From contig JALUBH010000037.1 in the NCBI GenBank assembly GCA_027050775.1, positions 1 through 64,000 of the forward strand: a stretch of 64,000 bases of DNA. The letters are read 5' to 3'. The notes under the pieces were generated by a model that did no database searches, was not told the DNA's origin, and saw only the letters and a list, made by a program, of their open reading frames with translations. A program made the position numbers and the translations under genes. Shown in pieces: positions 24,731 through 50,894 of the stretch. Origin of the DNA: Campylobacteraceae bacterium. Its GTDB lineage: Bacteria; Campylobacterota; Campylobacteria; Campylobacterales; Sulfurospirillaceae. Every line of letters begins with the position of its first letter. Position 1 is the stretch's first letter.

Positions 24731-24743
24731 TTTTGGGGTTTGA

Positions 24744-27350: not shown

Positions 27351-27784
27351 TTGTTGTCCTCCTTATGAATTATAACCAAAATATTTCTCGATACTTATCA
27401 TGTATCACCTCAAAATTTGCATTTTAGCAAAACCCTCCGCTAATTTAACAGTAAATTAACAAAAATTTAACAGTAAATTAACTATTTCTCTGAAATTATA
27501 CATTATCAAGGGTTTCTTTTGAGTCGCTTTTTTAAATTTATCAAAAATAATTTTACATCAGCGAGTCATTTGTACATTACCTAAAAATAAACTGCCGCAT
27601 AAGCTAAATTAAATTTTGAAAGAGCACAATATAATAAAGAATATTATACTAAAAATAACTTCAATTGTGTCTTAAATATGAACTATTTTTAAGAAAGAGT
27701 CATGGTAGTTCATGAGGTTAATAATTTAGATAAAATTTATCATTTTTGTGATATACTCATTTTCAATTTTTAACAGGAGTTTCT
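27351..27784. promoter_or_regulatory. nosZ upstream region with four TTAAC repeats at 11-bp phasing
   Basis: This 434-bp gap holds TTAAC on the plus strand at 27445, 27456, 27467 and 27478, exactly 11 bp apart, in two copies of TTTAACAGTAAATTAAC. This is typical of OmpR/PhoB-family operators. For nosZ (minus strand) a TATAAT lies at 27369-27374, and an inverted repeat GATAC-N7-GTATC at 27390-27406. A promoter TATACT near 27753 and AGGAG serve the plus-strand gene at 27785. I see no convincing gene in the gap; a 23-codon ORF from 27702 is unsupported. Confidence 0.6.
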
Positions 27785-33993: not shown

Positions 33994-34002
33994 GAGGATA
34001 AA

Positions 34003-34428: not shown

Positions 34429-34431
34429 AAG

Positions 34432-34445
34432 CTCTACATGTAGAG
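34432..34445. repeat. Iterated palindrome CTCTACATGTAGAG, copy between Hsp20 genes
   Basis: Exact 14-bp palindrome in the 35-bp gap between the second and third Hsp20 genes, just before the ribosome site AGGAGG of the third. As an RNA hairpin it could tune translation of the third gene. Confidence 0.65.
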
Positions 34446-34463
34446 TCTCCTAGGAGGTAAAAT

Positions 34464-35085: not shown

Positions 35086-35829
35086 TTAATCCTGTAATTT
35101 ATATACTAGAGTCACTTTTATATATAAATCCTTTGGAGGCTTGGGAAAATAAGCACTTGCTTTTTCAATAGTTTTTCTAGTAGCTTTTTTTAAAAATCTT
35201 TTTGCACAAAGAAGCTCTTTTATATCCACGCTACCATCTTTTTTCAGTAAAAATTTTACTTTTACTTCACCCTCGATATGGAGTCTTCTCGCTCTTCTTG
35301 GATAAAATTTTACATCTTTTATGGATGAGAGGATTTTTTGATAATTATATTTTAGATACCTTGCTTTTAGATCAATTTTTGGTGGAGATTTTGGAATAGA
35401 TTTAGTTAAATTTTCATCCATTTTTCTAGGTATGGGTTTAAAAATCTTTTTGACAATAGTCTTCTGTAAAACCTTTTTAGGTTTAGGTAAAGGTGGCGTT
35501 GGTTTTATATACTTAGTTTTACGGATAACTTTTTTCACTACTTTTTTAGGTTTAGGTTTAGGTTTAGGTTTAGGTTTTGGTTTGGGCTTAGGTTTGGGCT
35601 TAGGTTTAGGCTTTGGTTTAGGCTTTGGTTTAGGCTTAGGGGAGATTTTTTTTATAATTTTTGTTTTTTTTGGCTTGTGCACAATTTTTTGAACTATGAT
35701 TCTGTGTATGTGCATTTGAGTGATTTTCTTCTTTTTTACTATATTTGTATTGAAATTTACAAATATAAGAGAGAGAAGCGTTATATATATCAGCGATGCA
35801 ACTAAAAACGAGGAGAAGTATCTATTCAT
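35086..35829 (-). CDS. tonB: Energy transducer TonB with long Lys-Pro repeat
   Basis: 247 residues: N-terminal anchor (YFSSFLVASLIYITLLSLIFV), a periplasm-spanning stretch of about fifteen consecutive KP dipeptides (~residues 63-95), and a C-terminal TonB domain (~165-247) with YPRRARRLHIEGEVKVKFLL and AYFPKPPKDLYIKVTLVYKL. It carries proton-motive energy from ExbBD to outer-membrane receptors. The KP region is coded by a hexanucleotide tandem repeat (35547-35640). It overlaps exbD by 8 bp and ends the receptor operon. Confidence 0.93.
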   Translation of the reverse strand: MNRYFSSFLVASLIYITLLSLIFVNFNTNIVKKKKITQMHIHRIIVQKIVHKPKKTKIIKKISPKPKPKPKPKPKPKPKPKPKPKPKPKPKPKPKKVVKKVIRKTKYIKPTPPLPKPKKVLQKTIVKKIFKPIPRKMDENLTKSIPKSPPKIDLKARYLKYNYQKILSSIKDVKFYPRRARRLHIEGEVKVKFLLKKDGSVDIKELLCAKRFLKKATRKTIEKASAYFPKPPKDLYIKVTLVYKLQD

Positions 35830-36202
35830 GTTTGGTTATGATTCCTAGATTCGTATATCCTTTTTGTTTTAGCAAGTCGATAACTTTTACAAAATTGTCA
35901 AATTTGGAGTTTTTATCACAGTTTATGTTTATTGCTACACTCTTTTTGTAAGACAATAGTTTGGGTGCTATTTGCGAGAGAGCAACCTCTTGTTTGTTAA
36001 AATACAGATTACCGTCTTGTTTTATGGTTAAAATTATGACTTTTTGTTTGCTGATTTTTACAGAACTCTTGCCTTCGCTGAGATTTACGGGAATCATGCC
36101 GGTTGCTATAAAAGTGGCTGTCGTCAATACGATGACAAGCAGAACCAGCATGATGTCTATAAAAGGGACAACATTTATCGAGTCAAATTTTTGTATTTTC
36201 AT
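35822..36202 (-). CDS. exbD: Biopolymer transport protein ExbD
   Basis: 126 residues with one helix (VVPFIDIMLVLLVIVLTTATFI) that contains the essential aspartate of the ExbD/TolR motif (FIDIML), then a periplasmic domain. Forms the proton channel with ExbB. Overlaps exbB by 20 bp and tonB by 8 bp. Confidence 0.94.
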   Translation of the reverse strand: MKIQKFDSINVVPFIDIMLVLLVIVLTTATFIATGMIPVNLSEGKSSVKISKQKVIILTIKQDGNLYFNKQEVALSQIAPKLLSYKKSVAININCDKNSKFDNFVKVIDLLKQKGYTNLGIITKHE

Positions 36203-36623
36203 GCATCATGTCCCATTTTGCCAATACAACTTCTATTTTCCTTCCAAGATGATTATAAAACATCATGGAAGGAATCGCGACTATGAGACCCATAGCGGTG
36301 GCTTTTAGTGCCAAAGCTAGAGATGTCATGATGGTTTTTATATCCATATTTCCGCTTTGGCCCATAGCATAAAATGTGACAATGATACCAAATACGGTTC
36401 CAAGCAGCCCTATATAGGGTGCATTGGAGCCAAAAGAGGAGATGATTGTGATATGATTTGTCAAATCAATTTCAAGTTGTTCTTTTTGTTTATATTTTTC
36501 AAGCTTGATTTGTCTGAAAAATAGTAGTCTCTCCAAATAAAACCATAAAGATAAAAAACTCATAAGAGCTAAAACTCCCAAAATGCCAAAATCAACCGCA
36601 CTCTTTAAAAATTCGATATCCAC
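36183..36623 (-). CDS. exbB: Biopolymer transport protein ExbB
   Basis: 146 residues with three helices. The channel part APYIGLLGTVFGIIVTFYAMG followed by ALKATAMGLIVAIPSMMFYN is the conserved TolQ/ExbB/MotA region. Short relative to E. coli ExbB, as in Campylobacter/Helicobacter. Starts 9 bp after the copper receptor gene stop. Confidence 0.94.
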   Translation of the reverse strand: MDIEFLKSAVDFGILGVLALMSFLSLWFYLERLLFFRQIKLEKYKQKEQLEIDLTNHITIISSFGSNAPYIGLLGTVFGIIVTFYAMGQSGNMDIKTIMTSLALALKATAMGLIVAIPSMMFYNHLGRKIEVVLAKWDMMHENTKI

Positions 36624-36632
36624 TCTTATCCT

Positions 36633-38660
36633 TTAAAAACTGTATTTTAAATTTGCATAAAGATAACGACCTGGTTCATTTAAAAGCATAACATCTCCTG
36701 TTGAACCTGATACTAAAGTCAAGTCTTTATATGTGTTCGAAACGGCATAAGCTTTGTCAAAGACATTATCAACACCTAAAGTTAGATTAAAACCTTTGTA
36801 AAAATCTTTACTAACTTTTAGATTCAAAACACTCCAGCTGTCTATCGCCTGTTCGCCGTTATCTGAGTCATATTTACTCCATTTTCCAGAAGCTACAACC
36901 TCAGCTTTTAAGCTAAGAGATGAGTCATAATCATAGTTTACGGCTATGTTAGCTTTAACAGGTGGTATGGAAGGCAGATTTGTATCGCTCTGTCCTGCCA
37001 AAGGAGAATCTTTCTTGCCTCTTTGATAAGCGATACCATAATCAAAATATAGATCATCAGTTGCAAAGTAGCTACCGCTAAACTCCACACCATATATTTT
37101 TGCATCTGTATTTTGATACTGTTTTGCAGTGGAATTATAGACTATAAAATCTTTCAAAATGCTGTAAAAAACTTTTGCTTTAAAAGTGTTGTTCGTATAA
37201 ACACCCTCGAGACCCAAATCAGCTTCGTAATTTTTTGTCTCATCAAGGTTTGGATTTCCGATTAGTTTTCCATTGGTTTTACCAGTGAGATCTTTGCCTC
37301 TGAAATGTGACTCTTTGCCATCAGGCACTCTTATAGACTTTCCAAGGCCAATAAAAGATTTTAAAGAGCTGTTGATGTGGTAGTATGCAAAAGCATAGCC
37401 GCTTATATCATTATATGTCTCATCAGAGTCACTGTTTCCCGGGTCAATTTTTGTGTGATCATATCTTAAGCCGCCATTTAATTCCATCTTGCCAAAACTT
37501 TTTTTGGCTTTAGTGAAAAAACCGATATTGTTTGTGTCAACATCAGGAAGGCTTTTATTTAGTGCTATCGGGTTGGATGAAGTATATTTTTTATAGTATC
37601 TTCCGTCCCAATTTCTTTTGCTTGCTTCAAGTCCATAAGTAATCTTTGTGTCATTTATATGAAAATCATTATTGATTTTTGCTCCATATATGGTTGCACT
37701 CATCACATTTGCTATAGTTCCGGCAGGTCCACCGCTCATCTTTCGATATTGAGTTGTCATAGGGTGGTCAACTGTCGAATAGTAGTACTCAAATCCAAGT
37801 TTATCCGAATATTGACCTAAAGAGTTTATGATGTATTTGACATTATATAGATCAGAATTATCAGATATAGCATCCATTGGAGTCGAAGGGTAGAGAACAT
37901 TGTCGCTTCGGTTTCCTGTGTAGCTAAGTCTTAGTTCTTGATTGTCGGTCACATTTATATATGCTTTGCCCATAAATGATGTTTTTCTGTATGCATCTCT
38001 GTCAAATTCGCTTGGTTTGTACTGTGTCTTAGCATTTACAGTTCCGTCAGTTGCGATTTTTAACTGCTCTGCTAGAGTATTTCCATTTCCATCTTCATAT
38101 TGATCGCTTTGCTCTGTTGATGCACCAACAAGAACTTTTACTTTGTCGCTTCCTCCGCTGACAAAAGCTGAACCTTTTTTATATCCCCAGCTCCCTACAT
38201 TTAGATTTACATCTCCATGTAAATCTTTGGAGGGTTGATTTGTCGTAACTTTCACAGCTCCGCTTAGTGTTCCAAAATCTTCAACATCATAAGGACCCTC
38301 TATGACCTCTACATCTTTTATATTGTTTGTGATTATATGTGAAGTTGGTGGATCCATCCTATTTGGACAGGCTCCATATATCTTTCCGCCATCAACTATG
38401 ACATTGATATTGTCTTTTCTTTGACCTCTTAAAATTATATCGTTTGCTATCCCACTTCTTCTTTGTATGCTTATGCTAGGAACTGCGTTTGTTAAAGCCT
38501 CTGCCAAGTCAGCGGACTTCAAATCCTCGCCCGATACATCCGTGACTTCTGTCTTAATCGCAGAGCCCTCCACTGTAACCTTGTCCAAATTTACACTTTG
38601 TGCCGCATTCAAACAAGATGCCGCTGCAACTGAAATGGCTATTGCCAAATATCTCTTCAT
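36633..38660 (-). CDS. NosA/OprC-type TonB-dependent copper receptor
   Basis: Outer-membrane receptor, 675 residues: signal MKRYLAIAISVAAASCLNA, TonB-box-like VNLDKVTVEG, plug domain (~40-150, NVIVDGGKIYGACPNRMDPP) and a 22-strand barrel ending in YLYANLKYSF. The plug carries C98-P-N-R-M102 and an extracellular loop carries H299-P-M301, which together reproduce the CxxxM-HxM Cu site of OprC (NosA family). Such receptors import copper, and NosA in Pseudomonas stutzeri was linked to NosZ copper loading. Co-transcribed with the regulator before it and exbBD-tonB after it. Confidence 0.88.
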   Translation of the reverse strand: MKRYLAIAISVAAASCLNAAQSVNLDKVTVEGSAIKTEVTDVSGEDLKSADLAEALTNAVPSISIQRRSGIANDIILRGQRKDNINVIVDGGKIYGACPNRMDPPTSHIITNNIKDVEVIEGPYDVEDFGTLSGAVKVTTNQPSKDLHGDVNLNVGSWGYKKGSAFVSGGSDKVKVLVGASTEQSDQYEDGNGNTLAEQLKIATDGTVNAKTQYKPSEFDRDAYRKTSFMGKAYINVTDNQELRLSYTGNRSDNVLYPSTPMDAISDNSDLYNVKYIINSLGQYSDKLGFEYYYSTVDHPMTTQYRKMSGGPAGTIANVMSATIYGAKINNDFHINDTKITYGLEASKRNWDGRYYKKYTSSNPIALNKSLPDVDTNNIGFFTKAKKSFGKMELNGGLRYDHTKIDPGNSDSDETYNDISGYAFAYYHINSSLKSFIGLGKSIRVPDGKESHFRGKDLTGKTNGKLIGNPNLDETKNYEADLGLEGVYTNNTFKAKVFYSILKDFIVYNSTAKQYQNTDAKIYGVEFSGSYFATDDLYFDYGIAYQRGKKDSPLAGQSDTNLPSIPPVKANIAVNYDYDSSLSLKAEVVASGKWSKYDSDNGEQAIDSWSVLNLKVSKDFYKGFNLTLGVDNVFDKAYAVSNTYKDLTLVSGSTGDVMLLNEPGRYLYANLKYSF

Positions 38661-39337
38661 ATTAACTCCTTTTGTATTAATTTATATCCTATGCCTTTGA
38701 TATTTTCTATGCTATCTTTGCCTATTATATTTTTTAGTTTGCTGACATATACTCTTATAGAGCCGTAGCTATGTTTATCCGAACTACTCCATAACTTTTG
38801 TATTATCAGCTCTTTCGTGACAACTTTAGATCTGTTTTCTAGTAAGAGTTCCAATAGAAGTATGACTTTTAAGGATATTTTCATAGAAATATCGCCGTAA
38901 AATATAGTCTTTTGTTTAGAATCATAATAATATCTATCATTAAGCCTTACTTTTGTGCTTAGTTTTTTTCTGTTTTTAAGAAGAGTTTCTATGCGATAGA
39001 GTAACTCTTCGAGATCAATAGGTTTTTTCATATAGTCATCACAACCCAACATGTAGCCTTTTTTAAGAGTCTCCAAATCTTGATAAGAAGTTATAAACAT
39101 GGCAGGTTTATTATCTCCGCTATCTCTTAGCATTTTTAAAAGTTCCAAGCCATCTATCTTTGGAACTTTAACATCTAAAAGATATAAATCATAATTTGTA
39201 TGGTAGCTTTTTTGAAGTGCTTCTTCCCCGTCTTTTGCTATATTAACCAAGAAGCCCTCATCTTGCAGAAATTCTTGCAGAGTTTGCGCAAAAAGAAGAT
39301 TGTCTTCAAGCAATAAAACCTTCTCTCTCTTTTTCAT
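38657..39337 (-). CDS. OmpR-type response regulator without adjacent kinase
   Basis: 226 residues. Receiver: LLLEDN, phosphoacceptor LYLLDVKVPKIDG, TSYQ and lysine in MKKPIDLEEL. The winged-helix effector (~130-226) includes SMKISLKVILLLELLLENRSKV and SYGSIRVYVSKLKNIIG. Its stop overlaps the receptor start region, so it heads the receptor-exbBD-tonB operon. No kinase gene is next to it; its partner may be elsewhere or the sensor at 29022. Phased TTAAC repeats lie between it and the divergent TonB receptor. Confidence 0.9.
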   Translation of the reverse strand: MKKREKVLLLEDNLLFAQTLQEFLQDEGFLVNIAKDGEEALQKSYHTNYDLYLLDVKVPKIDGLELLKMLRDSGDNKPAMFITSYQDLETLKKGYMLGCDDYMKKPIDLEELLYRIETLLKNRKKLSTKVRLNDRYYYDSKQKTIFYGDISMKISLKVILLLELLLENRSKVVTKELIIQKLWSSSDKHSYGSIRVYVSKLKNIIGKDSIENIKGIGYKLIQKELI

Positions 39338-39360
39338 TGCGTAATTCTATCTTTTGAGTG

Positions 39361-39450
39361 TTAAAAATGTGTTAAGAATTTCTTTGACGAAAAAAGTAAA
39401 TATTTAACAGATGATTAACAGATCATTGTTAAACTTCCTTTTTATAAAAT
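39361..39450. promoter_or_regulatory. Divergent control region with 11-bp phased TTAA(C) repeats
   Basis: Between the response-regulator gene (minus) and the second TonB receptor (plus): TTAAA/TTAAG 11 bp apart near 39361-39376, and TTAAC at 39404 and 39415, 11 bp apart, with a third imperfect TTGTTAAAC at 39426-39434. A TATAAAAT box (39443-39450) serves the receptor. Consistent with an OmpR-family operator controlling both directions. Confidence 0.5.
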
Positions 39451-39487: not shown

Positions 39488-41662
39488 ATGAGTAAAAAGG
39501 TATATTTGTCTATATTTTGTGCTTTATTGATGAGTGCAAATGCAGCTGATTTAGGTATTGTTAATGTTGAATCATCAACTATTTCCGATTTGGCAACAGA
39601 TAAAAAAACAGAGGTTTCTACAGTAAATACAATAGATGAAAAGAAGATAGAAATAGTAGATCCAAAAAATATAGGAGAAGTTCTAAATACAATTCCTGGC
39701 ATTACCGCTGATGTAAGAAGTGGAGAGACTGTTGAGATACACATAAGAGGTGTTGGTCAGCAAGAGTTTATGTGGGAAGATACCGGTGTTGCTGTAGTGA
39801 TAGATGGTGTTCCTGTTCTTCAAAATGGAGGAAAGGTAAAATTAAACCTTGATGATATAGAGTCCATTAAGGTTATCAAAGGCGGTGCTAGTTATCTATA
39901 TGGAAGAAATGCATTGGCTGGAGCTATCATGATAACTACAAAGAAAGCAAAAAATAGAAATGAAAACAGTGTCAAATTTGAATATGGCAGTGAAAATTAC
40001 AATGATTTAGTAGCATCTTTGATAAGAGGCACTGATAAATATTCATTTATTTTAAATGCTAATTACAGATATACTGATGGTTACTGGGATATGAGTCAGC
40101 TTGAAGATAAGTCTGCAAATGGAAAATTCCAATACTATTTGGATGATATGAGTGATATAACAGTGGGAGCTAATATAGAGCGAAAATATGAAGAGAGTAG
40201 CAGGGGAAGTGTTACGGGAGTTTCGGCAGCGCAAACAAATCCAACAGGAGCAAATGATGGCGATTTGCCTTGGAATAGTGATTATTACTCTGATATAGAT
40301 AAATATTTCGTAACATACAATAGAGATTTTGAAAATGGGAACAACTTACGAGTAAATACATATTACTATCAAGATTTATATAACTTTTTATCATCCCCAC
40401 AAGATTTGAACGGTGATGGGCTTGACGATGGTTATACTAGTGATAATGATGAAGATATAAAACAGTATGGAGTAAAATCAGAGTACAGAGGAGAAAAAAA
40501 TAACCTTGCATATATGTTTGGTTTGGATTTAGGACAGAGGGATCTTGATGATAGCTGGAATAAAACAGCAACATATAGAAGCAGAGGAAGACGGTATTAT
40601 AAAGGAGAATCTTCAGAATCAGACACAGCAGCAAAAAACTCAGCCCTATATGCGGAAGCAAAATATAAAGTAAATGAGAAATTTACAGCTGTATTTAATG
40701 CAAGAGCTGATTATACAACTTTTGATTATGATGTGTTTGCACATGATTATAATGGGACTACTTGGAGTGATAGTTCTATTTCAAGAACTACAAATTTTTC
40801 AAATTTTTCATATAGAGTAGGCGGAACATATGAACTAAATGAAAAAAATATACTATATGCAAATATCTCTACAGGCTTTAGAAACCCTAGAGTTTATGAG
40901 TTGTATGCACATGATTTTGATCCGGATAGATATACGAAAAATAATACTGAAATAGATACCGAAACAACATTTAATATTGAGGCTGGTGTGAGAGGAAACA
41001 AGATAGTTTCAAATACAAAATTATCTTATGATTTGTCAATTTATCAAATTGATACAAAAGATATAATTGGAAAAATTGGAGGAACTTACTATTCAGGCGG
41101 TACAAATGTCTATTTTGACAATATAGGTGATGCAAGAAGCAGAGGAGTTGAATTTTCACTCAAAAGTGACAAAAGAAAAAAATTAGCTTTTGAGTTGGCT
41201 TATACATATCTTGATGCTTATTATACTTCTCATAAGCCTTTTACAGTTGATTTAACACCAATTTACAGATCAACAGGAGATAAAACATACGATATAAATG
41301 GAAATCAATTACCAAGAACTCCACATCATAAGATAAATATTATGACTTATTTGAAGATTGCTCCAAAATGGATGGTTGTACCATCTTACTATTGGCAATC
41401 AAGTTACTATGCAGATGAGACAAATTTTGTAAAAATGCCATCATATGGTGTTGCAAATCTGCTGGTAAAATATAATACAAAAGTCAAAGGTGGTGATTTA
41501 GAACTTTTTGCTAGAGCAGATAACTTATTTGACAAACAATACTACAGAACAGTTTATCTCTTTAGTGACAGAAATAGAGACGGACAACTTGATGCAGAAG
41601 ATGGAAGCATAACAGTTGACCCGGGTCGTGTTTTTTATGTCGGTTTTAAATACAAGTTTTAA
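39488..41662 (+). CDS. TonB-dependent outer-membrane receptor, ligand unknown
   Basis: 724 residues from the ATG at 39488, chosen over an upstream GTG because AAAGGAG lies 8 bases before it. Signal KVYLSIFCALLMSANAA; TonB-box region ~25-35; plug (~45-165) with VLNTIPGITADV, EIHIRGVGQQEFMWEDTGVAV and a VIKGGASYLYGRNALAGAI block; barrel with the typical FARADNLFDKQYYRTVYLF and final VFYVGFKYKF. Acidic Asp-rich loops (DLNGDGLDDGYTSDNDEDIK; DRNRDGQLDAEDGS) look like calcium or metal sites. Siderophore-type architecture. First gene of an operon through the RND gene. Confidence 0.9.
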   Translation: MSKKVYLSIFCALLMSANAADLGIVNVESSTISDLATDKKTEVSTVNTIDEKKIEIVDPKNIGEVLNTIPGITADVRSGETVEIHIRGVGQQEFMWEDTGVAVVIDGVPVLQNGGKVKLNLDDIESIKVIKGGASYLYGRNALAGAIMITTKKAKNRNENSVKFEYGSENYNDLVASLIRGTDKYSFILNANYRYTDGYWDMSQLEDKSANGKFQYYLDDMSDITVGANIERKYEESSRGSVTGVSAAQTNPTGANDGDLPWNSDYYSDIDKYFVTYNRDFENGNNLRVNTYYYQDLYNFLSSPQDLNGDGLDDGYTSDNDEDIKQYGVKSEYRGEKNNLAYMFGLDLGQRDLDDSWNKTATYRSRGRRYYKGESSESDTAAKNSALYAEAKYKVNEKFTAVFNARADYTTFDYDVFAHDYNGTTWSDSSISRTTNFSNFSYRVGGTYELNEKNILYANISTGFRNPRVYELYAHDFDPDRYTKNNTEIDTETTFNIEAGVRGNKIVSNTKLSYDLSIYQIDTKDIIGKIGGTYYSGGTNVYFDNIGDARSRGVEFSLKSDKRKKLAFELAYTYLDAYYTSHKPFTVDLTPIYRSTGDKTYDINGNQLPRTPHHKINIMTYLKIAPKWMVVPSYYWQSSYYADETNFVKMPSYGVANLLVKYNTKVKGGDLELFARADNLFDKQYYRTVYLFSDRNRDGQLDAEDGSITVDPGRVFYVGFKYKF

Positions 41663-41670
41663 GAGAATGT

Positions 41671-42333
41671 ATGATTGAGTACTCAACATTTTTTTCTGTT
41701 TTCATCATAGGATTATCTTATGGTACTACGGCATGCATGTTTTCATGTATGCCGTTTTTAACACCTCTGCTTATATCAAATTCAAACAGTACCAAAGAGG
41801 CTATGGGGGTCATATTGCCTTTTAGTTTCGGAAGAGTTTTTAGCTATACATTCCTAGCTGTGATTGCATATCTAAGCTCTTTTTGGGTGAAGAAGATTTT
41901 GGATGACAATGTCATAACAGATACTTTTTTAGGTGCTACTACGGTGATTATGGGTATTTACCTTTTTTACAGGAGTTTTGTGAGCCTAAACTCCTGCTCA
42001 AGCAATCTTCATAAAATCAAAAATACAAAAACAAGCAAGATAGGTTTTTTTACGATAGGGGCTACGATGTCTTTAAACCCTTGTGCTCCTATACTCGCAC
42101 TTTTGGCGGTGGCAATAAACAGTAAAGCTTTGCATGATGCTATCGGAATTGGTATATTTTTTGGTATTGGTGCGGTGCTTTTCTCTATACTTTTTTATGG
42201 TTTTATATTTTCAAAGTTTATAAGAGGTATTTTGGTGCAGTTCGTTGCATATAAGCCGTGGATTGAGAGATTTACAGCTGTGTTTTTGGTCGTCTTGGGT
42301 TTGACCATATTAAATAAAAACCTGATGTTTTAA
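41671..42333 (+). CDS. CcdA/DsbD-like (TauE/SafE-DsbD_2) membrane protein
   Basis: 220 residues, six helices in two repeats. Cysteines TACMFSCMPFLTP in the first and SLNPCAPILALLA in the second repeat lie where CcdA/DsbD proteins hold their transmembrane redox cysteines, and NPC-P near the second is typical. Such proteins move electrons or, in the related heavy-metal branch, copper across the membrane. Starts 8 bp after the TonB receptor stop. Confidence 0.8.
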   Translation: MIEYSTFFSVFIIGLSYGTTACMFSCMPFLTPLLISNSNSTKEAMGVILPFSFGRVFSYTFLAVIAYLSSFWVKKILDDNVITDTFLGATTVIMGIYLFYRSFVSLNSCSSNLHKIKNTKTSKIGFFTIGATMSLNPCAPILALLAVAINSKALHDAIGIGIFFGIGAVLFSILFYGFIFSKFIRGILVQFVAYKPWIERFTAVFLVVLGLTILNKNLMF

Positions 42334-42343
42334 GGAGTGGGTA

Positions 42344-44671
42344 GTGGTAGATTTTATAAAGAGAGATAAAAATGATATATTTGGTAAAAAAATTCTAGGT
42401 TTTTTGTTTAAAAATCAAAAATTTTTATTGTGTTTGAGAGTTCTTGTGACTTTTCTCTTCTTTTATGCTATATTTTTAGGTTTTAGTGATAATTCAAAAG
42501 GCAATCTCTTCACTTCTGCTCTTTTTTGGGGTATATTTTGGTCTTTTTTCATGGTAACGACTCTGCCTACATTTGGAAGAGTGTTTTGTAGCATCTGTCC
42601 TCATGGGTTTTTAGGTAAGTATATTAGCAAAATTGGTCTAAAAAAGAGTATGCCTAGATGGATGCAAAACCGCTTTCTTGGTCTTTTTTTACTAGTTCTT
42701 GGTTGGTGGGGAGTTTACTATGTGTTTCCTGGGGTATATAGAACACCGTTTGGTACTGCTATGCTGTTTTTGGTTATGACTCTTTTGTCGCTTGTGATCT
42801 ATTTTTTATATAGAGATATGAGTTATTGCAAATACATCTGCCCTATCGGCACAGTTACAAGGGCATTTTCCAAGCTCTCTTTCACAAGGCTTGGAACTTA
42901 CAAAAGTGCTTGTAGCGAGTGTAAGACATTTGATTGTGCTACTGCTTGTCCATACAACCTAAAACCCTTTAAATTTGATAAAAAGAATTCTATGGAGGAT
43001 TGCACTTTGTGCATGGAGTGTACTACTGCATGTGAGTCTGTGAACTTTAAGTTTAAAAAACCTTCATTTTCACTATTTGAAAAATTTAAACCCCAAAAAG
43101 CTGAGGTATGGGCATATATACTTATACTAGCATCCATACCTATAGCTATGGCATTTCATCATGGCATAGGTCGCAGTAAAGTCGCAAAAGATATGATTTG
43201 GTATAAAACTGCAGAAATTTTTAAGCCGTTACTAGGAAATTCTCTTGATAGTGTAGGGCTTTTTGCCTATCTTTATGCTATGCTTTTTACGATATTTGCT
43301 GCGACAATCGGTATGTATATAGCTTCAAAGATATTAAAAAAACCTTTCAAAGAGCTGTTTTATAATCTTGGTTACTCTTATGCGCCTCTTTTTATATTTG
43401 CTTCGCTCGGACATGCATTAAGTGGCTTTTTTACTAGAGGATATGAGAAAATTGTGGAGGGTTTTGCCTGGGCATTTGGTCTAAGTGTAGATGTAGCACC
43501 TCTTGCGAAAAGAGGAGATGACTGGCTGATGATATTTTCTGCTTTTAAGTGGTTGGCTATCATTTGGGCAGTAATGATACTATATAAAAGGATGAAGCTT
43601 CTAAAAGCAGACAAGATGAGAAAGATAGTGGCTTTTCCTTTTGCTGCGCTATTGATAATTTTCTATTTTGGTGTTAACGAGTATAGAGAATATATTATCG
43701 ACACTTATGGAAGAGCAGATAACGGTATGCACAGCAATAGAGGAGCAGGACACACTAGACACAGCAGGGCAAAAGGCAGACAAGGCTATTCTAAAAGTAC
43801 TTTAGCTTATGCAAAACCAAATGATACACTCTTTTTCACCGATAGAAATCCTGCTGTTGGGGGAAGAGGTGGCATGATGGGTATGATGAGAGCAAACAGA
43901 GATTCAAATGCTATCCCTAAAAGGTCTTTTTGGTTAGTTACTAAAAAATTAGACAAACCAAAATGTGTCAAAAATATAGATGGAAAATTTTATATTTTAA
44001 ATGTGAACGGAGAGCTTGTAAAGTCAAAAATTAAGAGCAAAAAAGGGTGTACTAGCATAACTTTTGAAGTTCCAAAAAACGGTTATTATACAATCTACTA
44101 TATAAGAGATCTCGACAAAATAGTAAATGTAGCAAAGTATGAGTACAAGAGGTTTAATCATGGCAGCAATGAGGAGTTTAGCAAAGATAAGATAACTCCA
44201 AAAACCATAAAGAAAGCTACTGTTGATATCACAAGATTAAGAGATGGTGAAGACTCCTTTTATTATAGTTTGCATGCAGGAGATATGCTAAGATTTAAGG
44301 TTCAAAAAGATGGCAAAGCACTTCAAGGAGCAAGAGTAACACTCAAGACTCAGTTTGGATGGCAAAAGAGTGTCAGAACAGATAAAAGCGGTATAGCAAA
44401 ATTTAAACTCATACAAGACTATAACCCAAAATGGGAAAAATTCAACAAAAGATTTAGAGAAAAATTTTTGGTAACAGCAGTATATAAAGACAAAAGTGAC
44501 AAGTACAAAGTAAGTTATACGGCTGTATATAGGCCATCAAGAGAGGCTTATCAATCGTATGCTTATGCACTCGTTATATCTATAATACTACTTATTATTT
44601 TAAGCTTAGGTATTTTTATTTACAGATATAAGGTGCAAAAGCCTTTCAAAGAGGTAACTTTTGATGAATAA
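42344..44671 (+). CDS. NosR/NapH-like membrane polyferredoxin with periplasmic carboxypeptidase-like domain
   Basis: 775 residues from GTG at 42344 (AAGGAG before it). N-terminal helices with CSICPHGFLG and CKYICPIGTVTRAF, then clusters CSECKTFDCATACP and CTLCMECTTACESV (~residues 185-230), five or more helices, a His/Met/Arg-rich stretch (GMHSNRGAGHTRHSR and GGRGGMMGMMRANR, ~465-520), a periplasmic domain with KDGKALQGARVTLKTQFGW and TDKSGIAKFKL (DUF4198/transthyretin-like, often linked to metal uptake) and a final helix. It could shuttle electrons across the membrane to a metal or metal chelate. Substrate unknown. Confidence 0.75.
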   Translation: MVDFIKRDKNDIFGKKILGFLFKNQKFLLCLRVLVTFLFFYAIFLGFSDNSKGNLFTSALFWGIFWSFFMVTTLPTFGRVFCSICPHGFLGKYISKIGLKKSMPRWMQNRFLGLFLLVLGWWGVYYVFPGVYRTPFGTAMLFLVMTLLSLVIYFLYRDMSYCKYICPIGTVTRAFSKLSFTRLGTYKSACSECKTFDCATACPYNLKPFKFDKKNSMEDCTLCMECTTACESVNFKFKKPSFSLFEKFKPQKAEVWAYILILASIPIAMAFHHGIGRSKVAKDMIWYKTAEIFKPLLGNSLDSVGLFAYLYAMLFTIFAATIGMYIASKILKKPFKELFYNLGYSYAPLFIFASLGHALSGFFTRGYEKIVEGFAWAFGLSVDVAPLAKRGDDWLMIFSAFKWLAIIWAVMILYKRMKLLKADKMRKIVAFPFAALLIIFYFGVNEYREYIIDTYGRADNGMHSNRGAGHTRHSRAKGRQGYSKSTLAYAKPNDTLFFTDRNPAVGGRGGMMGMMRANRDSNAIPKRSFWLVTKKLDKPKCVKNIDGKFYILNVNGELVKSKIKSKKGCTSITFEVPKNGYYTIYYIRDLDKIVNVAKYEYKRFNHGSNEEFSKDKITPKTIKKATVDITRLRDGEDSFYYSLHAGDMLRFKVQKDGKALQGARVTLKTQFGWQKSVRTDKSGIAKFKLIQDYNPKWEKFNKRFREKFLVTAVYKDKSDKYKVSYTAVYRPSREAYQSYAYALVISIILLIILSLGIFIYRYKVQKPFKEVTFDE

Positions 44672-45644
44672 GATAAGAGAATTTATAAATTATGGTGATT
44701 TGAGAAAATTTAGATTTTGGTTGCAACTTTTCTTTTTTATAATATTTATATATGGTGGCTATATGGCTATAGATTTGGGTAGAAACTTGCCTATCTTCTC
44801 CTGTGGATATGCTAGAGAGACGGGCGGAAACTGCTACTTTTTGGGTGTACAGCATCAACTTGCTCGTCCATGGAGCAGGCTCTTTAGTTATGCAAGCATA
44901 GGAGTATTAACGGGTTTTTTAACCTTTTTGCTATGGTTTGTAGTGTTTAATAAAGCTTGGTGTGGATATGCCTGTCCTTTAGGGACTATTCAAGATTGGA
45001 TAACAAGTTTTAGAAAGTTTTTGAAGATACCGTACAGCACATATACTCGTCCTCAGTATCAATTTTTAAAGAAAATAAAATATGTTTTCCTTTTTATAGT
45101 TATCATATTTCCATTGATGCTAGGGCTTGGATTGCTAGATGGCGAGTGGCGAGGTGCATTTTGTAAGATGTGTCCGGGCAGACTTATAACACCACTTTTT
45201 GTGGGCGATTACTCTCAGTGGACACTAGATTTTTCTACAGGTACAGCACTGTTTTTGACAGCTTTTGGCATGGGATTTACTGTTGTCTTTTTTGTAGGCT
45301 CTTTTATAAAGAAGAGGTTTTTTTGTTTCTTTTGCCCGATGAGTGCTATGCACTATATATTTAGTGATTGGGCATTGTTAAGGCTCAAAAAAGATGGTGA
45401 CAAGTGTACAAAATGTGGAGATTGTTACAATGTATGTGATATGCAGATAAAAGATATAGCAGATGATGTTAAAAGTAAAAATATACTAAGAGATGATTGT
45501 ATCTTTTGCATGAAGTGTGTTGCTGCCTGCCCTGAAGAAGATGCTCTACATGTAGATATATTTAACATCAAAGTTTTCACCTCTACAAAAGGTGGATTTG
45601 CAAAAAGAATGAACATAAATAATAAACAGGAAACAAAAAAATGA
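44664..45644 (+). CDS. NapH-like membrane ferredoxin
   Basis: 326 residues starting at ATG 44664, overlapping the previous gene by 8 bp. Four helices, cytoplasmic cysteine motifs CGYACPLGTIQDW and CKMCPGRLI plus CFFCPMSAM, then two [4Fe-4S] motifs CTKCGDCYNVCDMQ and CIFCMKCVAACPEED. Resembles quinol-oxidising NapH/CcoG-type proteins that can feed low-potential electrons. Contains a copy of the iterated palindrome (DALHVD). Ends in ATGA shared with the next small ORF. Confidence 0.87.
   Translation: MNKIREFINYGDLRKFRFWLQLFFFIIFIYGGYMAIDLGRNLPIFSCGYARETGGNCYFLGVQHQLARPWSRLFSYASIGVLTGFLTFLLWFVVFNKAWCGYACPLGTIQDWITSFRKFLKIPYSTYTRPQYQFLKKIKYVFLFIVIIFPLMLGLGLLDGEWRGAFCKMCPGRLITPLFVGDYSQWTLDFSTGTALFLTAFGMGFTVVFFVGSFIKKRFFCFFCPMSAMHYIFSDWALLRLKKDGDKCTKCGDCYNVCDMQIKDIADDVKSKNILRDDCIFCMKCVAACPEEDALHVDIFNIKVFTSTKGGFAKRMNINNKQETKK
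45544..45556. repeat. Iterated palindrome CTCTACATGTAGA, copy in the NapH-like gene
   Basis: 13 of the 14 core bases, in frame as ALHV, just after the last ferredoxin motif. Reading ALHV recurs in three unrelated proteins of the window (citG, this gene, the double NosL gene), which points to a shared DNA repeat rather than a shared peptide. Confidence 0.6.
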
Positions 45645-45727
45645 ATATTTTCTCGGCTTCAGCCGAAGCTTCAGTCGTGAGGAATTTTGCTTGGGCTTTG
45701 CTCAAGCAAAAGGGGACAATAAAATGA
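45641..45727 (+). CDS. Possible 28-residue coupled ORF with two hairpins
   Basis: ATG at 45641 overlaps the stop of the NapH-like gene (ATGA), and its TGA at 45725 overlaps the ATG of the double-cubane-like gene (ATGA). The product reads MNIFSASAEASVVRNFAWAL then LKQKGTIK. The DNA forms two hairpins, TCGGC-TTCA-GCCGA (45653-45666) and TTTTGCTTG / CAAGCAAAA (45685-45711). Either a small coupled protein, a translational leader controlling the next gene, or a repeat insertion that happened to keep the frame open. Confidence 0.35.
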   Translation: MNIFSASAEASVVRNFAWALLKQKGTIK

Positions 45728-46983
45728 AAAGAAATATTGAGACTCCAAAAGATAAACAAAATCGCCATAAGGCCATGGAGGCGGTTGCTATGTTGGATAA
45801 AATCAGGCATGATTTTATCCAACCTCCAAAAAATATGGACTATTTTTATGATTTATATGAGAAGGTTTATTGCAAGAGAGAGTCGTTGCATGCAAAAAGT
45901 GTCAAAGTGGGCACGATGTGCATACAAGTACCTTATGAGATTATCTATGCGCTAGATGCCGTTCCTATTAGATTGTGCAATGGTTTTTATACTGATGATG
46001 AGATAGGGAGTGATCTTGCCCCCTCGAAAGCTTGTCCATTGGTAAAGGCTACTGTAGGTCAGTTTAGCTCAAACAACTTCAGCGATAAGCCGGATTTTGT
46101 TATATCTCCCACTACATGTGACCAAAAGTCAAAATCGGGTGCCATTATAGAGGATATGGGTTATCTTGTATATGATATGGAGTTTCCTAGAACAAAAGAG
46201 AGTGAAGAGAGTAGAGAGTATTGGCGAAGGAGTGTGAGGAAGTTTACAAAAGAGTTATCTAAAAACTTAGGAAAAAAACTAAAAAAATCAAAACTAAAAA
46301 AAACTATACAAAGGATTGGCTATGCTCAGTATCTTTACCATCAGTTAAATGATTTAAGAAAAGAGCCAAATCCGCCGATTCTCGGCAAAGATATATTTTT
46401 AGTAACAAATGCTTTCTTTTTTGACAAGATAGACAACTGGATAGAGGCAACACAAAAACTATATGAAGAGTGTAAAATCAGAGTTAAAAATGAGGATAAA
46501 ACTCATAAAAATAGCCCTAGAATTGTATATACAGGCTCTCCTCCAATCTTTCCAAATCTTAAAATTCCACTTCTAATAGAGCAATCAGATGGAATAATAG
46601 TTGCAGATGAGACTTGCTCTGCAAATAGACTTTTTAACGACATGGTAAGTATTGATGAGTGGTTTTTGTATGATATGGTTGATGCTGTTGCAGATAGGTA
46701 TCTAAAAGGGTGTACTTGTCCAATATTTACAAAGAACAATGATAGAATCAGAAGAGTGATAGATTTAGTCAAAGAGTATAAGGCAGAGGGTGTTGTGTAT
46801 CAGGCTTTTGCGGGTTGTCAAGTCTATGAGATGGAGCAAAGGTCAGTAATAGAAGCGATGGAAAAAGAAGGAATTCCCATCTTGTACCTTGAGAGTGATT
46901 ATAGCCCTAGCCATTTAGGGCAGCTAACAACAAGGATAGAGGCTTTTATAGAGTCACTCAAGAATAGAAGGAGAAGAAGATAG
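45724..46983 (+). CDS. Double-cubane cluster-type protein (HgdB/2-hydroxyacyl-CoA dehydratase D-component family)
   Basis: 419 residues from ATG 45724 (AGGGGAC before it). Cysteines C66, C104, C132, C298, C330, C332 and C365 lie in family blocks: GTMCIQVPYEIIYALDAVPI, LCNGFY, SKACPLVKATVGQF, SPTTCDQKSK, ADETCSANRLF, YLKGCTCPIF and FAGCQVYEME, then GIPILYLESDYS. True dehydratases need two such subunits; here only one is encoded, next to its activator ATPase, as in double-cubane cluster proteins that reduce small molecules at very low potential. A long basic insert (~170-200) and a C-terminal RRRRR tail are odd. Confidence 0.8.
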   Translation: MKRNIETPKDKQNRHKAMEAVAMLDKIRHDFIQPPKNMDYFYDLYEKVYCKRESLHAKSVKVGTMCIQVPYEIIYALDAVPIRLCNGFYTDDEIGSDLAPSKACPLVKATVGQFSSNNFSDKPDFVISPTTCDQKSKSGAIIEDMGYLVYDMEFPRTKESEESREYWRRSVRKFTKELSKNLGKKLKKSKLKKTIQRIGYAQYLYHQLNDLRKEPNPPILGKDIFLVTNAFFFDKIDNWIEATQKLYEECKIRVKNEDKTHKNSPRIVYTGSPPIFPNLKIPLLIEQSDGIIVADETCSANRLFNDMVSIDEWFLYDMVDAVADRYLKGCTCPIFTKNNDRIRRVIDLVKEYKAEGVVYQAFAGCQVYEMEQRSVIEAMEKEGIPILYLESDYSPSHLGQLTTRIEAFIESLKNRRRRR

Positions 46984-47798
46984 TGAGATATTTCGCAGGT
47001 ATAGATATAGGCTCAACAGCCATAAAGATAGCAATCATAGATGAAAATAGAGAGTTGTTGGGGAAAAAAATAAGTGCAAGTGGTAGTATGTTTTACAAGT
47101 ATGCAAAAGAGGCACTTGCGGAGTTGCTGAATGAACTAAATATCAAAGAGGAGAATTTGGTATATACAGTCTCTACCGGATATGGAAGAAAGCTTTTCAA
47201 AGAGGCAAATGAGAAGATTAGTGAAATCACAGCAAATGCCATCGGTGCAAGAGCCGCTGCTAGAGCTGAGGGCAAGAAAGAGATAAAAACAATCATAAAT
47301 ATAGGCGGACAAGACAGTAAAGCTATATCTTTAGATAGTGATGGAAATGTAGTAAATTTTGCTATGAACGACAGATGTGCAGCAGGCACGGGTAAGTTTT
47401 TGGATGTAGTTGCACTTAAGCTTGAAATTGGGGTTGATGAATTAGGCGATTACCATTTTAAATCAACAGGCACACCGCTATCAATCAATAGTACTTGTGC
47501 AGTGTTTGCAGAGTCTGAGATTATAGGGCTCTTGGGAAATAACCATAGCATAGAGGATATAGTAGCAGGTGTTCACTACTCTATAGCAAGAAGAATTATA
47601 AAGCTTGTCAAGAGAGTGGGGATAAAAGAGGCTATCTATTTTGATGGTGGTCCTGCACTAAATGAGGGCTTAGTCAATGCTATTGAAAATGAGTTGACAA
47701 AAGAGATATTTATACCAAAATACCCTCAAATCACCACATCTTTCGGTGCGGCTATACTAGCACTTGAGTCTTATGAATATTTATCTAATCAAAATTAG
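46983..47798 (+). CDS. Activator ATPase of the BadF/BadG/HgdC family
   Basis: 271 residues, ASKHA fold: GIDIGSTAIKIAIID (phosphate 1), NIGGQDSKAISLD, and two cluster-binding cysteines per monomer, C132 in NDRCAAGTGKFLD and C172 in NSTCAVFAESEII; DGGPALNEGL is the adenosine site. The homodimer holds one [4Fe-4S] and injects electrons, upon ATP hydrolysis, into the HgdB-like partner encoded just upstream (stop/start overlap TAGTG). GTG start. Confidence 0.93.
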   Translation: MRYFAGIDIGSTAIKIAIIDENRELLGKKISASGSMFYKYAKEALAELLNELNIKEENLVYTVSTGYGRKLFKEANEKISEITANAIGARAAARAEGKKEIKTIINIGGQDSKAISLDSDGNVVNFAMNDRCAAGTGKFLDVVALKLEIGVDELGDYHFKSTGTPLSINSTCAVFAESEIIGLLGNNHSIEDIVAGVHYSIARRIIKLVKRVGIKEAIYFDGGPALNEGLVNAIENELTKEIFIPKYPQITTSFGAAILALESYEYLSNQN

Positions 47799-47807
47799 GA
47801 AATAAAA

Positions 47808-50800
47808 TTGTTTGAGAGAGTGTTAAAATTTTTTATCGAAAATTACAAGTTAAACTATATACTGTTTTTTCTAATTTTTGGTTTGGGTGTGTATAGTTAT
47901 ACTCTTTTGCCAAAAGAGGTATCACCTGTTGTAGAGCCTGATTCGATAACGATAAGGGGCGGATATAGTGGTGCATCATTAGATACTCTAAACAAGATGG
48001 CAGTCGAAGAGATAGAAGCTGAAGTGCGAAATATAGATGGCATAGATACCATCTCTTCTCGCATAACACCAGGAAGATTTTCTATCACTCTTGAACTTAA
48101 AAAAGGTGTTGATAAAGAGAAAATTCAAAAAGATGTGGATGATGCCATAACAGCTATAAAATCAGATCTTCCAAGCGATATGGATGAACCTACGACAAGT
48201 ACGGTGGCTCACTCAAGAGGTCTCATGCAAGTCTCTGTTTTTAGTAAAGTTTTAAGTAGAGACAAACTTATAGAGAATGCAAAAGAGCTGAGACTGAAGC
48301 TTTTGGGTATAAAAGATATATCAGATGTGACCATATTTGGTGATTCGGATGTATATTATGAAGTATTGATTGATGATAAAAAGGTCGAAGCTTATGGGTT
48401 GACACAAAAACAAGTCATAGATATCATACCAAATATCTCATACACCTTTCCACTAGGTCAAATAAAAAGTAACAAACAAGATTACTATATATCTCTTAAA
48501 AATAAAAAAGATGCTCTTAAAGAGTTTCAAGAGACGCTTCTAAATATAGATGGTAAAGTTATACCGCTAAAAGATGTGGCAATTATAAAAAAGAGATATG
48601 AAGACTCTTCAACGCTAGCTAGCATGAATGGTAAAAATGCAATAACTCTCTCTCTTTCTCAAAATCCCAAAGGCAATGCCATAGAGATATCAAAACAGGT
48701 TCGTAAATTGATAAAAAAGTTTAAAAAACCTGAAATTGAGTATGATATCAGAAACGATCACTCAACAGTAGTGAAAGATAGACTAGATATCGTTATTTCA
48801 AATATTTTGATGGGGATTATCCTCATAACACTCATAACCTCTTTGCTGATAAATATCAGGATGGCATTTGTGATAGCTTTGGGAATTCCTACATCATTTG
48901 TTATTGGAGCTATATATTTTTATTTGACAGGATATAGTGTAAATATAAACTCACTCATAGGAGTACTTATAGCCATCGGTATAATAGTAGATGATGCGAT
49001 AGTGATAAGCGAAAATATACAACAGTATATAGAAAAAGGTTTTTCTCCAAAAAAAGCGGCTTTTTTAGGGACAAAAGAGATGGCAAAACCTGTAGCTATA
49101 GCATCCTTGACTACTATTTTTGCATTTATACCTCTTTTGATGCTTACAGGCAGACTAGGGCAAATTATGGAGCTTATTCCAATAGCTGTCAGTGTTTTGG
49201 TTGTAGCCTCTTTGATTGAGTCTTTTTTGTTTTTACCTATACATTCGGCACACATCTTAAATAAAAATGCTCGCACACTCTCTTGGAGAGGCATAAGTAG
49301 TTTTTATTCAAAAATGTTAAGAATAGTCATCAAAAACAAGGTTATGTTTTTGAGTATATTTTTGATTTTAACACCTCTTCTGATGTACAACAGCCTAAAA
49401 CATTTAAGATTTAAGATGTTTGAGCCTTTTGATTCGACATCGGTAAGCATAACTTATAAGGCTTCTAAAGATACAACTCTTCAGGACTCCATAAAGATTG
49501 TTCAGACTATAGAAAATGATCTCTTAAAACACAAAAAAGAGTTTTTTATAGACTATGTAAGTTCGACAGCAGGATATAGAAGAAGTGTGGCAGGAGGTGC
49601 TGAGATGTACCCTTATGTCGGTTATGTTACGCTTTATCTGCAAAAAAAGTCTCCATCAAACTTTCTTGAAAAGTATATAACTCCATATCTTAGTTTTTAT
49701 TATGATAAAAAAGGCAGAGTCAGAACTGAAAATTCCAGACAAATCTCAAGAAAACTGAGGAAATTTTTAAGGAAACAGAAGTATAAAAAGAGATTTCACT
49801 TAGAGGAGATTAGTACTTTGGAGAGGAGAATGGGACACTCTAGAACTGATATTATGGTTGGAATAATCGGAACAGACTATAAAAAAGTGATATCTGGCAT
49901 AAAAAAACTAAAAAACAGCCTTAGAAAAATCAAAGCAGTAAAATTTGTGAGTGACAATATGAAGTTTGGCTCTAGTGAAATTAAGATAAACCTAAACTCC
50001 TATGGAAAACGACTTGGAGTTACACAGAAATATTTAGGTAACTATATAGCTGACCTTTATCTAGAGAAAAAAAAGGGTGTAATTTCAGATAAAAAAGGGA
50101 TGTTAGATATAAAAGTTTCCTCAGAATACAAAAATAGTAAAAAAGATTTTAATACACTGAAAATTGCATTGAAAGATGGTAAAACCGTGATGCTTAAAGA
50201 TATATGTGATTTTAGTATTACTCAATCTTTAGAAAAGTTGACAAAAGATGATGGAGAGGTTAATTTTTATGTATATGCCAATGTTGATCAAGATATAAGC
50301 ACCACAGGTGAAGTGATGAGAAATATTATGCCGATTTTAAAAGAGCTTAAAAAAAGTGGTTTGAGATATAAGCTAAGAGGTGAGTATAGGCAGAAGAAAA
50401 TCCTCCAAGAAGATATGTTAAAGGCTATTTTTGTAGCTGTAATATTGATATTTTTGTCTATTTTATATCTATTTAATTCTATTAGAGAAACACTTATGGT
50501 TATGAGTGTTATACCTTTATCCTTTTTGGGTGTTCTATTTGGGCATCAGATTATGGGATTAAATCTTTCCATACCATCTATAGTTGGGGCATTGGGACTT
50601 GCTGGAGTGATTGTAAATGATGGTATATTGATGCTATCAATCATAAAAACTGCAAAAAGGCAAGCAGATATATCAACTTTGGCTAAGAAGAGGTTTCGAC
50701 CTATCATTTTAACTTCGGTAACTACTATCATAGGACTCTCTTCTCTTATGTTTTTTGCTACGGGGCAGGCAGTTACATTTCAACCGTTGGCAGTATCGTT

Positions 50801-50894
50801 AGGCTTTGGATTGCTTTGGGGTACTATACTAAATCTCTTTTATCTACCCAATATATATGCACTTTATCATATAAGGGAGACAAAAGACAACTGA
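47808..50894 (+). CDS. RND-family efflux transporter, inner-membrane component
   Basis: 1028 residues from a TTG at 47808. Standard AcrB/CusA-type layout: helix 1 (NYILFFLIFGLGVYSY), large periplasmic loop, helices 2-6 (~335-480) with the proton-relay region LIGVLIAIGIIVDDAIVISE, second loop, helices 8-12. DD at the relay marks the HAE-type. No membrane-fusion or outer-membrane partner is in the operon. Paralogous to the gene at 61466. Probably exports a product or poison linked to the operon. Confidence 0.92.
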   Translation: MFERVLKFFIENYKLNYILFFLIFGLGVYSYTLLPKEVSPVVEPDSITIRGGYSGASLDTLNKMAVEEIEAEVRNIDGIDTISSRITPGRFSITLELKKGVDKEKIQKDVDDAITAIKSDLPSDMDEPTTSTVAHSRGLMQVSVFSKVLSRDKLIENAKELRLKLLGIKDISDVTIFGDSDVYYEVLIDDKKVEAYGLTQKQVIDIIPNISYTFPLGQIKSNKQDYYISLKNKKDALKEFQETLLNIDGKVIPLKDVAIIKKRYEDSSTLASMNGKNAITLSLSQNPKGNAIEISKQVRKLIKKFKKPEIEYDIRNDHSTVVKDRLDIVISNILMGIILITLITSLLINIRMAFVIALGIPTSFVIGAIYFYLTGYSVNINSLIGVLIAIGIIVDDAIVISENIQQYIEKGFSPKKAAFLGTKEMAKPVAIASLTTIFAFIPLLMLTGRLGQIMELIPIAVSVLVVASLIESFLFLPIHSAHILNKNARTLSWRGISSFYSKMLRIVIKNKVMFLSIFLILTPLLMYNSLKHLRFKMFEPFDSTSVSITYKASKDTTLQDSIKIVQTIENDLLKHKKEFFIDYVSSTAGYRRSVAGGAEMYPYVGYVTLYLQKKSPSNFLEKYITPYLSFYYDKKGRVRTENSRQISRKLRKFLRKQKYKKRFHLEEISTLERRMGHSRTDIMVGIIGTDYKKVISGIKKLKNSLRKIKAVKFVSDNMKFGSSEIKINLNSYGKRLGVTQKYLGNYIADLYLEKKKGVISDKKGMLDIKVSSEYKNSKKDFNTLKIALKDGKTVMLKDICDFSITQSLEKLTKDDGEVNFYVYANVDQDISTTGEVMRNIMPILKELKKSGLRYKLRGEYRQKKILQEDMLKAIFVAVILIFLSILYLFNSIRETLMVMSVIPLSFLGVLFGHQIMGLNLSIPSIVGALGLAGVIVNDGILMLSIIKTAKRQADISTLAKKRFRPIILTSVTTIIGLSSLMFFATGQAVTFQPLAVSLGFGLLWGTILNLFYLPNIYALYHIRETKDN

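Follow-up and report, generated by a model that had tools for sequence, protein, structure and literature searches.

What can a protein of the double-cubane-cluster protein (DCCP) family be doing in one operon with a TonB-dependent receptor and membrane iron-sulfur proteins? The question is raised by seven genes at positions 39488-50894 (+) of the 64,000-nucleotide stretch analysed here (the window), which lies on contig 37 of a 2.19-Mb Campylobacterota genome. The operon probably helps its host to obtain hard-to-reach copper, because its control box is common to copper-uptake and copper-enzyme genes; that it belongs to copper physiology is well supported and, in our judgement, highly likely.

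A control box common to copper genes

The box (TTAACAGATGATTAACA, 39404..39420, +) lies 68 bp before the TonB-receptor gene of the operon. A second copy in the opposite orientation (TTAACACATTTTTAACA, 39359..39375, -) stands before a divergent operon encoding a response regulator and an OprC-type copper receptor, and tandem copies (27445..27483, +) precede nosZ (24744-27350, -), which belongs to a nos cluster 12 kb from the DCCP operon. Near-match boxes at 31819 (31819-31835) and 31960 (31960-31976) lie between two divergent genes with a NosL domain (PF05573; 30670-31797, -, and 32022-32705, +). An 11-bp direct repeat is typical of OmpR-family regulators. The exact pattern TTAACA-N5-TTAACA occurs four times in the 2.19-Mb genome, always in the window: twice before nosZ and twice between the OprC and DCCP operons. 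With up to one mismatch allowed, the window holds seven matches against 1.6 expected, a number reached in none of 100 shuffles, and all seven lie before nosZ, between the two NosL genes, or between the OprC and DCCP operons. Elsewhere in the genome, one-mismatch matches are background (24 in total, fewer than the 37 of the reversed control).

Another 135 exact boxes were found in 36 further Campylobacteria genomes; the following counts include the genome of the window. Of the 36 genomes with an OprC-type gene, 20 have an exact box in the 300 bp before it, usually 55-135 bp away; by our own arithmetic, chance would give about 0.02 matches (139 boxes, 36 genes, about 77 Mb). Similarly, exact boxes precede 16 of 19 copies of the DCCP operon and lie near the estimated start of 9 of 31 nosZ genes. 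Boxes are also found before NosL genes, the response-regulator gene itself, ExbB, DsbD_2, the copper chaperone PCuAC and two genes for cbb3-type oxidase subunit I (COX1, CcoN); many of the remaining boxes in these genomes are without explanation. Ordinary DCCP paralogs had no exact box in the 27 short surrounding stretches searched (110 kb). Taken together, the box apparently marks a copper regulon across Campylobacterota (OprC, nosZ, NosL, PCuAC, CcoN, ExbB, DsbD_2 and the response regulator). A further box precedes a polytopic membrane protein without a Pfam match (L213:1424-2500, +), which resembles, by eye, a neighbour of the module in L118 and is possibly a copper-sparing respiratory component.

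The regulator of the divergent operon (38657..39337, -) is of the OmpR family by Pfam and scores 125.6 bits against the heavy-metal response-regulator model TIGR01387 (cutoff 279); response regulators 40-57% identical to it flank the DCCP operon in eight other loci. The receptor (36633..38660, -) has the CxxxM (GACPNRMD) and HxM (DHPM) motifs of the copper site described for OprC (PMC8610252) and matches the OprC structure (PDB 6fok, E 1.6e-28). Its 191.6 bits against TIGR01778 are under the cutoff of 472, and we therefore call it OprC-type. Receptors with both motifs stand beside the system in three Campylobacterota loci (L034, L035, L072), two of Bacteroidota (L110, L111) and one of the betaproteobacterium Parasulfuritortus (L099). 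The ORFs for ExbB, ExbD and TonB (open reading frames, 35086..36623, -) follow, TonB being recognised by its TonB_C domain and ExbB and ExbD assigned from sequence. The functional unit also takes in this divergent operon (response regulator-OprC-ExbB-ExbD-TonB, 35086-39337, -).

The operon and its conserved core

The seven genes are confirmed as a real operon: all ORFs are present, intact, co-oriented on one strand and tightly spaced, as the original prediction had described them. The gaps are 8 bp between the TonB-receptor and CcdA-like genes, 10 bp between the latter and gene 3, 76 bp between the NapH-like gene and the ATG of the HgdB-like gene, and 9 bp between BadF and the RND gene; gene 3 overlaps the NapH-like gene by 11 bp and the HgdB-like gene overlaps BadF by 1 bp. 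The next downstream gene starts 167 bp after the RND gene. The names given to the genes were matched by Pfam and NCBIfam searches (TonB receptor, DsbD_2, Fer4_5, NapH-like, HGD-D, BadF, ACR_tran), with Pfam scores of 309.5 bits for HGD-D and 188.7 bits for BadF. Neither the operon region nor any of six proteobacterial loci matched an Rfam family, and they thus give no evidence of a cobalamin or other riboswitch.

We compared 80 loci encoding close relatives, in which many gene absences reflect contig ends. By tblastn, the NapH-like gene was found in 77 of them, BadF in 76, gene 3 (at least its C-terminal domain) in 71, CcdA/DsbD_2 in 60, the TonB receptor in 55, ExbB in 27 and a same-strand RND gene in 19. 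The conserved core consists of the periplasmic domain, the NapH-like iron-sulfur protein, the single-subunit DCCP and its BadF activator, usually with CcdA/DsbD_2 and the TonB receptor. Chance is ruled out for the recurrence of the gene set, since the core genes recur jointly in 80 loci; the original prediction had proposed to look for such co-occurrence in other neighbourhoods, and it is there. The loci span five phyla: Campylobacterota (Sulfurimonas, Sulfurovum, Sulfuricurvum, Arcobacteraceae, Hydrogenimonas), Alpha-, Beta- and Gammaproteobacteria, Bacteroidota, Calditrichota and Acidobacteriota, with hosts that include Thiobacillus, Gallionella, Dechloromonas, Sedimenticola, Methylococcaceae, Methylocystaceae, Flavobacteriaceae, Calditrichota and one acidobacterium. 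Among 298 Campylobacteria genomes, counted without regard to kinship, orthologs of the HgdB-like protein (at least 63% identity) and of the NapH-like protein (at least 49%) occur in the same 17 and in no other. The system is also present in the isolates Parasulfuritortus cantonensis LSR1 and Sulfurovum mangrovi ST1-3 (NZ_CP087125.1:353724-367503, L119; LN246_RS14995-RS15035). The copy of the latter lies on a deposited plasmid record of 395 kb, where the genes are annotated with generic names only and the box occurs twice, before both TonB genes. In the open-access literature, we found no paper on a DCCP with TonB, on the dehydratase family with copper uptake, or on the whole gene set.

The HgdB-like protein (45721..46983, +; PDB 7yyl/6eno) is of the single-subunit DCCP type. 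Its residues C67, C105, C133, C299, C333 and C366 are invariant in 77 sequences and align with Cys36, 73, 100, 263, 293 and 327 of BzdN, six cysteines that ligate an [8Fe-9S] cluster (PMC11971306). The HgdB-like proteins of the operon form their own group apart from ordinary DCCP paralogs (98/98 support). As the score against NF040772 (333.5 bits) is under the cutoff of 350 and the clade is divergent, we use the label DCCP-like. The activator (46983..47798, +) is of the ATP-dependent BadF/HgdC type (TIGR00241, 233 bits against a cutoff of 125; PDB 4eht). That the protein might be half of a two-subunit dehydratase was ruled out by the missing second subunit and by low scores against the two-subunit dehydratase and benzoyl-CoA reductase families (19-87 bits, cutoffs above 420). 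Indeed, no paired HGD-D subunit was found in the operon or the genome, and the sole other HGD-D protein is a paralog on contig 11 (G000:C11:28262-29482, L001; 33% identity) with its own BadF, in agreement with the single-subunit double-cubane type that had been predicted. No TonB neighbour was seen in the stretch around this paralog and no exact box was found nearby. In-frame stops returned by the genome search for Campylobacter-type DCCP genes (G123, G247, G194) turned out to be either the normal stops at the C-terminal end or not present.

Gene 3 (42344..44671, +) encodes a polyferredoxin membrane half (Fer4_5) and a periplasmic domain with weak DUF4198 similarity and a C-terminal transmembrane anchor. 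Its relatives have a long form of 756-929 amino acids (aa) or a short form of about 280-390 aa, and of the long form only the C-terminal periplasmic domain aligns with the short one; this domain (43799..44668, +) gave profile matches in 70 loci and is a free-standing protein in Beta- and Gammaproteobacteria and Bacteroidota. We therefore regard the polyferredoxin half as a lineage-specific addition and rejected it as a part of the core. An AlphaFold2 model of the periplasmic domain (predicted local distance difference test, pLDDT, 92.6) had as its top Foldseek matches structures of Zcp with Cu, Zn or Co (E 2e-9, probability 1.0, query and target TM-scores TMq 0.53-0.54 and TMt 0.64), so the predicted fold matches metal-bound Zcp. 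The Pfam cutoff for DUF4198 was missed (25.3 bits against 34). We read the Zcp of these structures and the zinc- and Zur-regulated Zcp transcript of the gonococcus (PMC13343924) as one protein. Moreover, a NosL-like domain is inserted in the long form of gene 3 at 14 loci, and seven of seven checked exceeded the Pfam NosL cutoff.

The TonB-dependent receptor of the operon (39488..41662, +; Pfam TonB_dep_Rec and Plug) belongs to another group than the OprC/NosA receptors (PMC8610252): the CxxxM-HxM site present in the divergent receptor is absent from it. H88 and M98 in the plug and H617 (numbered on the 727-aa ORF from 39479) are the same in all 33 receptors aligned from its own group. In the Bacteroidota loci L110 and L111, repeated 125-aa proteins with the motif ECNGKCYLEKQL adjoin each TonB receptor gene; one of them was checked against Pfam and matched no family. 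At the other end of the operon, the RND permease (47808..50894, +) is an optional accessory and not a part of the conserved system. It is multidrug (HAE-1)-like and not of the heavy-metal type, with 426 bits against NF033617 and 244 bits against the CusA/CzcA model TIGR00914 (cutoff 701), both under cutoff, and no adaptor or outer-membrane factor lies beside it in the window.

A proposed electron route and its alternatives

The NapH-like protein (44661..45644, +) scores 72.7 bits against TIGR02163 (cutoff 213) and has two cytoplasmic ferredoxin sites as well as membrane CX3CP-type motifs. It also has C48, C58, H65, C168 and C171, which are invariant in 48-78 sequences and predicted from hydropathy and charge to be periplasmic. 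The extra cysteines are absent from three canonical NapH proteins (L113-L115) and from the NapH of the nos cluster in the window (19763-20674). Its neighbour, the CcdA/DsbD_2-like membrane protein (41671..42333, +; PF13386, 72 bits), has invariant cysteines in a CX3C motif (C22, C26) and at C109 and C138.

Four loci have a version of the module without the DCCP (L061:1204-5878, -; L116:7708-12449, -; L117:5340-9961, +; L118:7288-11948, -), made up of a TonB receptor 36-40% identical to that of the operon, a His-rich, DUF4198-like periplasmic protein, a NapH variant and CcdA. The variant has the same extra cysteines (read in L061), and the box is exact in L116 and has one mismatch in L117, L118 and L061. 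In five other loci (L049, L050, L052, L066, L104), two periplasmic-domain/NapH modules stand upstream of a single HgdB-BadF pair. The original prediction suggested that the two membrane ferredoxins could feed the activator, which does not fit relatives with only one of them; the extra NapH cysteines and the DCCP-less version suggest the reverse flow. Because of these cysteines, the DCCP-less version and the shared HgdB-BadF pairs, we place the DCCP as the donor to the NapH wire, although for a flow of electrons from the DCCP to the periplasm the balance is about even.

In the mechanism that we propose, the TonB-dependent receptor would let a copper complex through the outer membrane, to be held in the periplasm by the Zcp-like domain, which is fused to a NosL-type domain in many relatives. 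In the cytoplasm, BadF would spend ATP to load the double-cubane cluster of the HgdB-like protein with single electrons of very low potential, which this protein would hand on. The NapH-like protein would receive them at its cytoplasmic [4Fe-4S] clusters and carry them across the membrane to the cysteine/histidine site on its periplasmic face, with the CcdA-like protein as a possible parallel thiol path and the RND permease as an accessory. There, the electrons may release copper from a complex, such as a copper-sulfide cluster or a thiolate, that withstands reductants at the level of quinols. We lean towards a role in uptake rather than in maturation; that the module acquires copper by sending electrons from the ATP-driven DCCP through NapH to free the metal from refractory periplasmic complexes is to us the most likely explanation, with about even odds of being right. 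The metal cargo of the receptor and the chemical nature of its substrate are what we infer. More tentatively, at odds somewhat below even, we suggest an ATP-driven transmembrane electron injector, in which a nitrogenase-like double-cubane/activator pair and a NapH-type wire might use sub-quinol electrons to strip copper from TonB-imported sulfide or thiolate complexes.

Several points tell against this proposal. A weaker reductant would be enough to turn Cu(II) into Cu(I); we have therefore assumed a refractory complex (copper-sulfide clusters or thiolates in sulfidic habitats), which fits the hosts. Both the link of the operon to copper and the direction of the electrons are read from the sequences, and a structure search with a model of the NapH-like protein of moderate confidence (pLDDT 74) gave no fold match. 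Related folds also take part in the handling of iron (PMC11870441, PMC7190382) or zinc (PMC13343924), and the box was studied in the Campylobacteria only. OprC is found in 16 of the 17 genomes with the system and in 67 of the 281 without, an association that follows lineage and was set aside; due to this confounding, adjacency and the shared box were used instead. Finally, 9 of the 17 genomes having the system encode nosZ, as do 80 of the 281 lacking it (Fisher p 0.035), which is too weak for a role in nitrous oxide (N2O) alone, and N2O reduction is therefore not the sole purpose.

Of the alternatives, maturation of cuproenzymes would have the operon help to build copper-sulfur centres (for example CuZ of N2O reductase) by providing electrons of low potential or sulfide chemistry. 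The box common to nosZ and NosL, the NosL-type domain fused to gene 3 and the nearby nosZ cluster are in its favour, but eight of the 17 genomes with the system are without nosZ, the TonB receptor and its OprC partner indicate uptake, and the box also precedes cbb3 oxidase genes, so we consider it unlikely. It is improbable that the system is for another metal, as a chelate of iron, zinc, nickel or cobalt, and that its only tie to the copper genes is a common regulator responsive to envelope or redox stress: DUF4198-type proteins do accompany iron-responsive TonB receptors with PepSY reductases (PMC11870441, PMC7190382), and zinc-regulated Zcp (PMC13343924) binds Zn and Co besides Cu, but the box has copper genes as its known targets, and a NosL domain is fused into gene 3 in some relatives.

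In the original prediction, a substrate enters the cell, the double-cubane protein reduces it in the cytoplasm and the RND pump expels it. A TonB receptor and an RND gene do flank the DCCP genes in the window, and the known chemistry of DCCPs is the reduction of small molecules in the cytoplasm (PMC11971306). This model is now distinctly improbable: the same-strand RND gene, found in only 19 of the 80 loci and without an adaptor beside it in the window, argues against export, and the module has no conserved inner-membrane importer to bring a substrate to a cytoplasmic reductase. Moreover, the periplasmic domain and a NapH with periplasmic cysteines are universal, and the DCCP-less version retains the rest. 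What survives of the predicted interpretation is a co-occurring system with a single-subunit double-cubane protein, and its guesses at the substrate had included a metal chelate; the RND export and the feeding of the activator by the ferredoxins are not supported. Least probable is copper defence, in which reductase and pump would repair or export under copper excess, since a regulator that resembles heavy-metal regulators, a solitary RND gene nearby and a tripartite RND pump in a few relatives stand against OprC-type receptors and TonB machinery, which are uptake devices, cuproenzyme genes that share the box and an RND permease that is not of the CusA/CzcA type.

Neighbouring genes, known systems and significance

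The nos cluster of the window (17292-27350, -) is of clade II, with a Sec-dependent NosZ, NosD, NapG- and NapH-type ferredoxins and an ABC ATPase, and a two-component system (28242-30668) adjoins it. Three consecutive HSP20 small heat-shock genes (33547-35048, +) lie beside the copper-receptor operon.

The closest known proteins to the DCCP-like enzyme, the Carboxydothermus DCCP with its activator (PDB 6eno, 7yyl) and YjiM/YjiL of E. coli, have the same six cluster cysteines, an adjacent BadF and no second subunit, and their catalytic part is about 30% identical to that of the DCCP-like enzyme. The DCCPs known so far are soluble orphan enzymes, whereas the gene described here is locked into a membrane/TonB operon and belongs to a clade of its own. 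NapH, NosR and CcoG likewise have membrane CX3CP-type motifs and two cytoplasmic [4Fe-4S] sites; the operon protein differs by its four extra invariant periplasmic-side cysteines and histidine and scores far under the NapH cutoffs. CrtA-CrpH of Bordetella (PMC12914433, PMC13038864) also combines a TonB copper receptor with an inner-membrane partner (PepSY-type), sometimes with ExbBD/TonB, and serves copper oxidases, but the operon has a NapH/CcdA iron-sulfur partner, an ATP-driven double-cubane donor, a receptor of another family and no PepSY protein. The TonB/DUF4198/DUF2271/PepSY iron systems of Caulobacter and Alteromonas (PMC11870441, PMC7190382) likewise have a TonB receptor, a DUF4198-type periplasmic protein and a proposed periplasmic metal reductase; they are iron-regulated and flavin/PepSY based, without an iron-sulfur wire or an ATP-driven reductase. 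By analogy, the module would follow the same logic of reductive metal uptake through a TonB receptor but use a reductant that is both stronger and of another kind.

According to the literature, what the archetypal double-cubane proteins do in the cell is unknown (PMC11971306). One DCCP clade can now be assigned to a copper regulon; its partner genes are named and it has hosts in culture, which makes the question of its role directly testable, and the TTAACA-N5-TTAACA box offers a simple handle on copper regulation across Campylobacterota. If the proposal is true, the operon would encode metal-acquisition machinery of a new class and reveal, for the first time, what a DCCP-type protein does physiologically, and bacteria in sulfidic or anoxic water would be mining copper by super-reduction at the expense of ATP. 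Copper there limits N2O reduction, cbb3 oxidases and methane oxidation, and such a system would thus bear on N2O emissions.

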